A stretch of DNA of 61,192 nucleotides from Oscillospiraceae bacterium. Lineage in GTDB: Bacteria > Bacillota > Clostridia > Oscillospirales > Ruminococcaceae. Position 1 is the stretch's first letter, and the number at the start of each line of letters is the position of its first letter. Positions 18,604 through 20,329 of this stretch are shown here, piece after piece. Both the position numbers and the translations under genes were made by a program. Location: positions 1 through 61,192 of the forward strand of contig JAFUNR010000011.1 in assembly GCA_017472965.1 (NCBI GenBank). Direction: 5' to 3'. The notes under the pieces were generated by a model. That model had not been told where the DNA came from, made no database searches, and saw only the letters and a program-made list of their open reading frames with translations.

Positions 18604-19989
18604 TTATTTCGCCTTTTTCTCGGTCTTGACGGCGGTCTTGAGGAAGGTTTCCTCCCCGGCCTCCGGTTCTTCCTTTGGCAGCACGCGGACAGCGGCAAGG
18701 CGCATATGGCGGCTTTCCACCTGCAGCACCTTTACCTGCAGACCCTGCAGGGTCAGCTCGGTGGTCTCGCCGTCGGCCAGCACACGGCCCAGCGTACCGA
18801 ACACCAGCCCGCCGAAGGTATCGTACTCATCGGCATCGGCATCCAGCTCCACCTCCAACAGCTTTTCCACCTCGTCCAGCGGGGCGGTGCCCCGGATCAG
18901 CCAGCTGCCGTCCGGCTGGGGGGTGATCTCCTCGGAATCGCGGGCGGGCACACCGTCGTCGCCCAGATCGCCCACCAGACGCTGCACCAGATCCGACATG
19001 GTGATGATGCCGTACACGCCGCCGTATTCATCCAGCACCACGGCAAAGCTGTGGCCGGCATTGCGCATATTCTGCAGCAGCACATTGGCGGTGACAGTCT
19101 GAGGCACAAACCATGCGGGGCGCACCGCCTGCTGCATAACGGTATCCCGGTCGGTGGAGGGCAGACGGAAGTAATCGCGCACATCCAGCACGCCGCGGAT
19201 ATCATCCACACCGTCGCCGCACACGGGGAAACGGGTCAGCCGGCAGCTGCGGATTGTCTCATCCCACTCTTCGGGGCTTTCCTCCAGCCACAGAGCCTGC
19301 AGCTCGGTACGGTGGGTGGCAAGCTCGCCGGCGGTGAGATCGTCAAAATCAAAGACATTGTTGATGAATTCCTGCTCGATGGTATCGATGACGCCCTTTT
19401 CGCTGCCGGCATCCACCATCATGCGGATCTCCTCCTCGCTGACCTCGTCATCGTGGGCATTGGGATCGATGCCCATCAGCCGCAGCACGCCGTTGGTGGA
19501 AAGGGTGAGCAGCCCGACGATGGGGGCAAACGCCTTGGAGACAAAGCTGAGCAGACCGGAAAGCGCCAGCGCGAGGCTTTCGGCCTTTTTCATGGCCACC
19601 TGCTTGGGCACCAGCTCGCCGAACACCAGCGTGAAATAGGAAAGGATCAGCGTGATGACCACGACGGCGATGCTTTCCAGCACAGAGGTGGGGATGGAGA
19701 CCCCCAGCCCCACCAGCCAGTCCACCAGCACGCCGGAAAAATTCTCGGCGGCAAAGGCGGAACCGAGGAAGCCGGCCAGTGTGATGGCCACCTGAATGGT
19801 GGAAAGGAAGCGCCCCGGCTGGGCGGTGAGCCTGACAAGGCGCTTTGCGCGGCGGTCGCCGCTTTCGGCCAGCTTTTCCAGCTTGGTATCGTTGAAGGAA
19901 ATGACGGCGATCTCGGCGCAGGCAAAGACGGCGTTCAGCGCTATGAGCACCACCTGCAGCAAAATGACAAAGCCTATGGAATCGTTCAT
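18604..19989 (-). CDS. CNNM/CorC-family magnesium transporter (hemolysin-C-related)
   Basis: A 461-residue membrane protein. Residues 1 to about 190 form the CNNM (DUF21) domain with its FACAEIAVISF and GELVPKQVAMKKAE signatures; about 205-335 form a CBS-domain pair (FAVVLDEYGGVYGIITMSD is the second); about 345-435 form the CorC_HlyC domain (ADEYDTFGGLVFG). Family members in S. aureus and B. subtilis are credited with Mg2+ export and Mg2+ tolerance. The start has AAGGAG 14 nt upstream, an unusually long gap. A strong promoter 300 nt upstream and a leader with ORF plus terminator suggest attenuation control. Confidence 0.93.
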   Translation of the reverse strand: MNDSIGFVILLQVVLIALNAVFACAEIAVISFNDTKLEKLAESGDRRAKRLVRLTAQPGRFLSTIQVAITLAGFLGSAFAAENFSGVLVDWLVGLGVSIPTSVLESIAVVVITLILSYFTLVFGELVPKQVAMKKAESLALALSGLLSFVSKAFAPIVGLLTLSTNGVLRLMGIDPNAHDDEVSEEEIRMMVDAGSEKGVIDTIEQEFINNVFDFDDLTAGELATHRTELQALWLEESPEEWDETIRSCRLTRFPVCGDGVDDIRGVLDVRDYFRLPSTDRDTVMQQAVRPAWFVPQTVTANVLLQNMRNAGHSFAVVLDEYGGVYGIITMSDLVQRLVGDLGDDGVPARDSEEITPQPDGSWLIRGTAPLDEVEKLLEVELDADADEYDTFGGLVFGTLGRVLADGETTELTLQGLQVKVLQVESRHMRLAAVRVLPKEEPEAGEETFLKTAVKTEKKAK

Positions 19990-20084
19990 GATGAAAAGAA
20001 TTGCTCCTTATGTGTGATTTTTATCAAAAGTAAAACAGTCGGTCGGCAAACGGGCGATCTCCGCAAATGCGCCGCAGCGGCGCC

Positions 20085-20234
20085 TCATTTCGGCGAGTGC
20101 GGCGAAAACAAATACAAAAAGGCATACCCGGGCGGCCCTGCACCGAGGGCTGCGGGTATGCCTGTATGTATGGTATTTGTGATCATATAACAGGGACCGG
20201 GGGTATTGGTTCGGTCCGGGTCAGGGTCAGCCAT
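20085..20234 (-). CDS. Candidate regulatory leader peptide, acidic and proline-rich at its start
   Basis: A 49-codon ORF in the CNNM leader. ATG 20234 has AAGGAG (20248-20253) 13 nt upstream. It begins MADPDPDRTNTPGP, alternating Asp and Pro in the way that destabilises translating ribosomes at low Mg2+, as known for the enterobacterial MgtL leader (MEPDPTPLP). Codons 25-38 lie exactly on the arms of the intrinsic terminator at 20116-20162, and the stop codon (20085) comes after its T run. A ribosome that finishes translation would unfold the terminator; one that drops off early would let it form. Not recognised as a known protein; the regulatory role is inference. Confidence 0.55.
   Translation of the reverse strand: MADPDPDRTNTPGPCYMITNTIHTGIPAALGAGPPGYAFLYLFSPHSPK
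20116..20162 (-). terminator. Leader terminator upstream of the CNNM gene (attenuator candidate)
   Basis: On the minus strand, perfect 10-bp arms GGCATACCCG / CGGGTATGCC, an inner GCCCT / AGGGC stem, and TTTTT immediately after. It sits about 130 nt into the transcript and 126 nt before the CNNM start, and no other gene ends here, so it can only act on the CNNM transcript. Confidence 0.88.
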
Positions 20235-20276
20235 GATGACAAAAATGCTCCTTGTAACAGGTGATTACAATTGACA

Positions 20277-20329
20277 CAGCCGAATCGGCTGCACGGATAT
20301 AGTATACCCGCACAGAAGGGTTTTGTCAA
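20277..20329 (-). promoter_or_regulatory. Strong promoter of the CNNM transcript with palindrome at the start site
   Basis: Minus strand TTGACA (20324-20329, consensus), 17-nt spacer, TATACT (20301-20306). Transcription should begin near 20294. A perfect palindrome CAGCCGA-A-TCGGCTG (20277-20291) lies right at the transcript's 5' end and would form a 5' hairpin or act as an operator. Confidence 0.85.

Follow-up and report, generated by a model that had tools for sequence, protein, structure and literature searches.

The window analyzed here is the whole 61,192-nt stretch of contig JAFUNR010000011.1 from an Oscillospiraceae bacterium, and it carries on its minus strand a gene for a CNNM protein predicted to export Mg2+ (Pfam matches PF01595 at 1.9e-51, PF03471 at 1.2e-15 and PF00571 at 4.4e-8). 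A promoter, a leader ORF (hereafter uORF) and a terminator precede this gene, an arrangement that our analysis confirmed (Table 1). The original prediction had described a TTGACA-17-TATACT promoter followed by a 49-codon ORF with an Asp/Pro-rich opening, codons 25 to 38 of which would span both arms of a perfect terminator, with the stop codon falling past the T-run. Promoter and ORF are both present on that strand, the overlap is exact (20162 to 20121) and the stop codon does lie beyond the T-run, but calling the terminator perfect was too strong, given that its 10 uninterrupted outer pairs enclose a 2-nt bulge and one mismatch.

Table 1. Features of the CNNM gene and its leader in the window
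Feature	Coordinates	Strand	Remarks
Sigma-70-type promoter, TTGACA-17-TATACT	20301..20329	-	11/12 consensus matches
Shine-Dalgarno (SD) of the leader ORF, AAGGAG	20248..20253	-	13 nt 5' of the ATG; from sequence
Leader ORF (uORF), 49 codons, MADPDPDRTNTPGP...	20085..20234	-	ATG at 20234
Acidic/proline stretch, uORF codons 2-14, proposed ribosome destabilizer	20193..20231	-	Residue profile of 105 uORFs
Terminator hairpin under uORF codons 25-38	20121..20162	-	-29.1 kcal/mol, z -3.7
Terminator T-run, T5	20116..20120	-	From sequence
uORF stop codon, TGA	20085..20087	-	28 nt past the T-run; from sequence
SD of the CNNM gene	20004..20009	-	Start region similar to that of the uORF
CNNM-CBS-CorC_HlyC gene, 461 aa, predicted Mg2+ exporter	18604..19989	-	Pfam

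Transcription probably starts near position 20294. Scanning 4 kb for promoters gave 2 promoter-like sites against 1.3 in shuffles, a count that is by itself no proof. The uORF (20234 to 20085, minus strand) translates as MADPDPDRTNTPGPCYMITNTIHTGIPAALGAGPPGYAFLYLFSPHSPK. An alternative TTG start at 20242 (LSSWLTLTRTEPIPPVPVI), which has a more usual SD spacing, was set aside, as relatives appear to keep the ATG frame together with the long spacing. None of 200 shuffles was as stable as the terminator hairpin, and inclusion of an outer AT stem brings it to -33.5 kcal/mol (z -5.7); the terminator is absent from the output of a simple terminator scan. A scan with Rfam models gave no hit above the gathering score in the window, and among 20 CNNM loci it gave tRNAs only, which speaks against an M-box or other known riboswitch in the leaders scanned. 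The CNNM protein itself begins MNDSIGFVIL, with a single D/E/P among residues 2 to 11, and is thus not acidic/proline-rich at its start. The start regions of the uORF (20222 to 20270) and of the CNNM gene (19975 to 20024) resemble each other (AATCAC...AAGGAGC-ATT..TCATCATG), with a local alignment score of 35 that none of 2,000 mononucleotide shuffles reached, and they look as if one had been copied from the other.

Leader ORFs upstream of clostridial CNNM genes

Relatives were compared in two collections. The family set comprises 145 CNNM loci with a usable start (of 147, L007 and L133 being without one) from three orthologue searches, some of them from the order and beyond; loci that were truncated or distant (L014 and L026-L030 of 30 loci, L047 and L049-L067 of 37) were left out, and from the third search the best listed matches down to G192 were used, leaving out weaker ones. 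The class set holds 89 CNNM loci from across the class, taken among the matches listed. One locus occurs in both sets (L039 = L215), giving 233 distinct loci. Our basic rule for a uORF asked for an SD of at least 5 together with four or more D/E/P among residues 2 to 11; the strict rule was defined by D/E at residue 2 or 3 and a length of at most 60 codons.

An ORF of this kind before CNNM genes is more than a chance ORF. By the basic rule it occurs at 60 of the 145 family-set loci, whereas dinucleotide shuffles predict 1.7 and the reverse strand yields 1, and when at least 5 D/E/P are required it is still found at 32 loci against 0.1 in shuffles. The strict rule identifies a uORF at 75/145 family-set and 30/89 class-set loci, the latter distributed over 13 of 37 families, whereas the control genes yield 0/30 (TrkH) and 3/27 (MgtE, 27 of 30 loci, with L294, L296 and L297 left out; Fisher test against the pooled controls, 1.6e-9). 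Together the 233 distinct loci, 104 of them positive, encode 104 distinct strict uORF peptides, starting for instance MDDGDSNAPAKPP, MDDGDPARCP, MEDSDSNTDHP, MDDPDSGDAHPGEYP or MNADGDAEPDRP in the family set and MDDSPLPER, VDDSPLPEP or MDDIPEDIR in the class set. The motif AGGAG-N-ATG-GAY-GAY-GGN-GAY (SD-MDDGD) has five matches in 197 whole genomes, all five directly upstream of a CNNM gene, and a promoter matching at least 10/12 consensus positions lies just 5' of the uORF at 55 of 75 family-set loci (1.4 expected from mononucleotide shuffles). The comparison of relatives for a conserved frame and D/P start that the original prediction had proposed therefore did not refute it, an acidic/proline-start ORF with its own promoter being common before CNNM genes. 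For the genus of the window there is one further genome, 88% complete, and it gave no match at E<=1e-80, so the exact uORF of the window has no close homologue for comparison. CNNM paralogues of another subfamily showed a strict uORF at 3 of 20 loci; those of L331 and L340 look real (MEDDSDSNNPCHHPS and MDSDSSDDYDNCYLRNDKHICG) and the third, L329, looks spurious.

The uORFs appear to be under selection as coding sequence. Related uORFs were sorted into 15 groups, and codons 2 to 12 were compared in 36 pairs drawn from these; codons with a single difference were synonymous in 35 of 69 cases against 16.8 expected (binomial p 3e-6, for pairs that are non-independent and groups that were picked by eye), and the differences fell 17, 14 and 38 times on the three codon positions. 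The other two frames stayed at chance, with 20 synonymous differences against 19.2 and 20 against 19.9, so the excess is limited to the uORFs' own frame. Across 105 uORFs the peptide is acidic over residues 2 to 8, with D/E in 91% at position 2 and 76% at position 3 (values partly set by how the sample was selected, later positions less so), P in 32% at position 5, and K/R in 0 to 3% at positions 2 to 7 and richer from 18 on. Among residues 2 to 10, Asp outnumbers Glu 288 to 51, and some uORFs are without proline near their start. Aligned SD-start spacing is longer for uORFs (median 12, n = 96) than for CNNM starts (median 8, n = 100; p 3e-18), a trait that may make early elongation weaker or put it under strain.

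That the D/P-start ORF would overlie a terminator in relatives also was borne out at most family-set loci, where a strong terminator precedes the gene at 68 of 79 uORF loci (here without the 60-codon limit that defines the 75 strict loci), whereas loci of the acidic gene-start type have one in 7 of 36 cases (p 5e-12). The contrast did not extend to the class set, with 19/30 uORF against 12/21 gene-start loci (p 0.77), counts made by rule; by eye, the uORF loci L187, L214, L216 and L217 seem to have arms spaced more widely or paired more weakly than our limits admit, and L193, L200 and L203 seem mislabelled as gene type. At L214 and L216, whose uORFs read MDDIPGHIRSSKALC and MDDIPEDIRSSRALC, apparent terminator arms (GGCAC ... 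GTGCCTTTTTTT) stand on either side of a very long loop.

No hairpin could be placed at 10 of the 79 family-set uORF loci, and the one chosen at L087 looks wrong. At the other 69, the uORF stop codon precedes the hairpin by more than 12 nt once and by up to 12 nt 8 times, and lies in the 5' arm or loop 23 times, in the 3' arm 17 times and beyond the hairpin 20 times, so that it falls at most 12 nt before, in or beyond the hairpin in 68 of 69; the window belongs to the group beyond. Placed hairpins are stable (mean z -5.81, 61/62 below -2) and begin a median of 59 nt downstream of the uORF start. Their arms vary much between loci (59 distinct), with pair types taken from minimum-energy folds, which are paired by construction and are not independent evidence of covariation. 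Besides this hairpin the leaders showed no structure, either upstream (mean z 0.08, 62 loci) or downstream (0.03, 57 loci), and no upstream competitor for the terminator 5' arm was detected (mean z +0.29, 0/70 loci below -2 against shuffles). Folding of family-set leaders likewise found no conserved pause hairpin; an antiterminator, a pause hairpin and an RBS-sequestering hairpin were dropped for want of any signal in the leader folds.

Acidic starts within CNNM proteins and leaders of MgtE genes

Relatives lacking the uORF often begin the CNNM protein itself with MDPDS, MPDPDS, MDDPGS, MPEGDP or MSDPDGGS. Such an acidic/proline gene start occurs at 40 of 145 family-set loci, and the two forms are seldom together: 4 family-set loci have both, 71 only the uORF, 36 only the gene start and 34 neither by the rules used (p 1.6e-10), and the class set follows the same trend with 3, 27, 21 and 38 of its 89 loci (p 0.011). 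Several switches between the two forms seem to have taken place: a tree of 93 proteins, some of them wrongly labelled, requires 22 changes when three labels are used and 10 when uORF is set against gene type. Most simply read, a single sensing element can be placed either in a leader or within the gene itself. Acidic starts as such are not confined to CNNM genes, being found in 14/27 MgtE and 0/30 TrkH genes (CNNM against pooled controls, p 0.74), and they were rejected as stand-alone evidence because they are equally frequent in MgtE.

At two loci of MgtE importer genes, L270 and L291, we observed MgtL-like leader ORFs, MEPGSKRSPDPDGQRRTEGFLSADK and MEPGSTCSPEPDGRRRYILKY, which start approximately 157 and 290 nt ahead of the matched MgtE sequence and have no Rfam match; the idea that leader peptides of MgtE form another widespread class was dropped after their motif gave one match in 291 class genomes. 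M-box riboswitches lie 5' of two of the 20 MgtE genes scanned (L281, 2981-3140; L289, 1204-1373), which implies that some importers here are under another kind of Mg2+ control.

A putative translation-abortion attenuator

We propose that the leader is a translation-abortion attenuator for a predicted Mg2+ exporter, a reading that we consider probable. Its promoter, the uORF and the selection on it, the terminator, their overlap and the absence of a competing structure are supported by sequence and comparison. That ribosomes fall off at the D/P codons, that Mg2+ is the principal signal and in which direction the CNNM protein of the window transports are inferences. RNA polymerase starting near 20294 would make the leader while a ribosome begins the uORF. 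Given enough Mg2+, a stable ribosome would pass the Asp/Pro codons 2 to 14, trail the polymerase into codons 25 to 38 and keep the terminator arms apart, such that transcription would continue into the CNNM gene. At low Mg2+, the acidic/proline nascent chain would cause drop-off within the first dozen codons, upon which the hairpin would fold, transcription would end near 20116 and the exporter would not be made. An acidic/proline start on the CNNM protein would respond alike, because translation of the exporter would itself be aborted.

N-termini rich in D/E have been reported to destabilize the ribosome and abort translation (PMC9718836), drop-off on the EPDP of MgtL at low Mg2+ is described as a Mg2+ sensor (PMC11282234), and in E. 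coli a ribosome close to an intrinsic terminator is reported to repress termination (PMC4824070). A ribosome past codons 2 to 14 must next cover the terminator arms, so translation should block termination, which abortion should allow. As the terminator 5' arm has no rival pairing partner upstream, translation is expected to turn the gene on and early abortion to turn it off, and the architecture of the window argues for a gene that is off upon abortion. Expression at high Mg2+ is reasonable for a family linked to Mg2+ export, as MpfA has been, though whether it exports or regulates export was left open by its authors (PMC6711546). It is also in line with Salmonella corC- and mgpA-lacZ fusions, which are reported to go up at 10 mM Mg2+ (PMC12421838). 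On balance the original prediction is partly supported: the polarity that it proposed fits leaders without a competitor for the 5' arm, and the ORF class is conserved.

MgtL, the leader peptide of mgtA in E. coli and Salmonella, is described as a short ORF with an acidic/proline start that precedes a Mg2+ transporter gene and controls transcription into it, as we propose here. The window differs in its host (Clostridia), in a gene for a predicted exporter rather than an importer, in an intrinsic terminator of hairpin and T-run rather than a Rho-dependent one, in leaders of its type having no alternative RNA folds that we could find, and in the reversed polarity expected. MgtQ of Salmonella mgtCBRU, in which Asp/Glu codons near the start are reported to abort translation and set Mg2+ transporter expression (PMC8092293), is described as using alternative stems to control how the RBS of an importer is released, and there abortion promotes expression instead. 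E. coli CorC (YbeX) has been described as opening with an IRD sequence, which is suggested to raise CorC at high Mg2+ (PMC12421838, citing Chadani et al. 2021); the same account gives YoaL as leader peptide of mgpA, a relative of corC, and presents CorC as cytoplasmic and MgpA as a TerC-domain protein, on which description neither would be a CNNM protein. As far as it is described, CorC shares with the window an acidic start associated with a Mg2+ efflux gene of CorC type and the same expected polarity, but its IRD is within the protein whereas that of the window would be in a uORF of its own that overlies a terminator, and the clostridial CNNM relatives starting MDPDS or MDDPGS are a nearer match to it than the uORF is.

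The pyrBI attenuator senses UTP via polymerase pausing, whereas the variable proposed here is ribosome stability. In attenuators of this type the leader ORF extends across an intrinsic terminator and there is no antiterminator, a layout shared with the window, and a ribosome near the polymerase blocks the terminator, as we propose here. The pyrBI leader has been named as pause-coupled (PMC4824070). Among the papers listed in our literature searches, none showed a leader peptide or attenuator for CNNM or, in Clostridia, one linked to Mg2+, and the main text of a survey of premature terminators names neither magnesium nor CorC, hemolysin or a CBS domain (PMC2965389). The statement that no such case had been described therefore holds for a CNNM attenuator within this search, but an IRD start on CorC, for which the expected polarity is the same, has been published (PMC12421838). 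The clostridial uORF over a terminator would combine a sensor like that of MgtL, a geometry like that of pyrBI and the polarity suggested for CorC.

The same switch of uORF and terminator could instead gauge translation capacity or energy, for example through ABC-F rescue at early acidic codons, and not Mg2+. The leader shows nothing that is Mg2+-specific, and the E. coli ABC-F protein EttA is reported to relieve stalling and drop-off at early acidic residues, those of MgtL included (PMC11282234); a general gauge, however, is not expected to pick a single Mg2+ gene family, and the uORF class is tied to CNNM both by its exact motif (5/5 in 197 genomes) and by its scarcity before TrkH (0/30) and MgtE (3/27), which makes this reading rather unlikely. 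We regard as very improbable an opposite, MgtL-like polarity in which abortion would free a termination-preventing sequence and turn CNNM on at low Mg2+. It takes its appeal from an acidic/proline start like that of MgtL, where abortion is described as switching the gene on (PMC11282234), but it needs an alternative pairing, and the 5' arm has a competitor at z < -2 in 0/70 loci, the region upstream of the terminator is unstructured (mean z 0.08), and expression at low Mg2+ would be wrong for an exporter.

Both the likeness of uORFs to acidic gene starts (MDDGDS, MDDPGS) and that of the two start regions in the window (score 35, 0/2,000 shuffles) would suit a passive relic, that is, an old CNNM start cut off by insertion of a terminator that is constitutive. 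A relic should nonetheless lack the synonymous excess seen in 15 groups, a promoter of its own (55/75) and a stop codon at, in or beyond the terminator (68/69), and if the acidic start served membrane topology instead, it is seemingly not needed by the protein, since 71 of 75 proteins behind a uORF have no acidic start by our rule; either version is improbable. Slimmer still are the chances of a classical amino-acid attenuator for Asp or Pro supply. Asp codons are indeed frequent in residues 2 to 10 (288 Asp to 51 Glu in 105 uORFs), yet no antiterminator hairpin was found in 70 loci, some uORFs are proline-free near the start, the acidic codons sit at the start of the ORF and not at the hairpin, and the CNNM gene is without a known link to Asp or Pro supply.

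Transcription-translation coupling and the Mg2+ economy of Clostridia

For a translation-abortion attenuator, an objection comes from transcription-translation coupling. Bacillota have been classed among bacteria with runaway transcription, in which the polymerase moves ahead of the ribosomes (PMC13323073), and tight coupling in this phylum is doubtful. For an E. coli terminator placed 30 nt after the start codon, translation is reported to have cost only about 10% of its efficiency (PMC4824070). Without polymerase pausing, most transcripts would terminate ahead of the arrival of the ribosome. Together with a hairpin at a median of 59 nt, runaway transcription and the small E. coli effect imply either a pause not seen in our folds or a read-through that represents a regulated minority of transcripts. 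The wider proposition is that across Clostridia ribosome stability is the Mg2+ sensor of CNNM exporters, supplied interchangeably by a uORF that overlies an intrinsic terminator or by the exporter's own first codons, with the leader ribosome matching the pace of the polymerase in a supposedly uncoupled phylum; we hold the odds of this to be even.

If true, translation-abortion attenuation of CNNM genes would invert the principle of MgtL, with the fragility of the ribosome licensing export at high Mg2+, and would make a leader-peptide attenuator widespread in Bacillota, a phylum for which attenuation coupled to the ribosome is considered difficult. It would also explain the MDPDS-like starts of a sizeable share of clostridial CNNM proteins, and would offer more than 100 different natural sequences from which to learn which nascent chains destabilize ribosomes. 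In these bacteria the ribosome's own stability may be the magnesium gauge that permits synthesis of the exporter.
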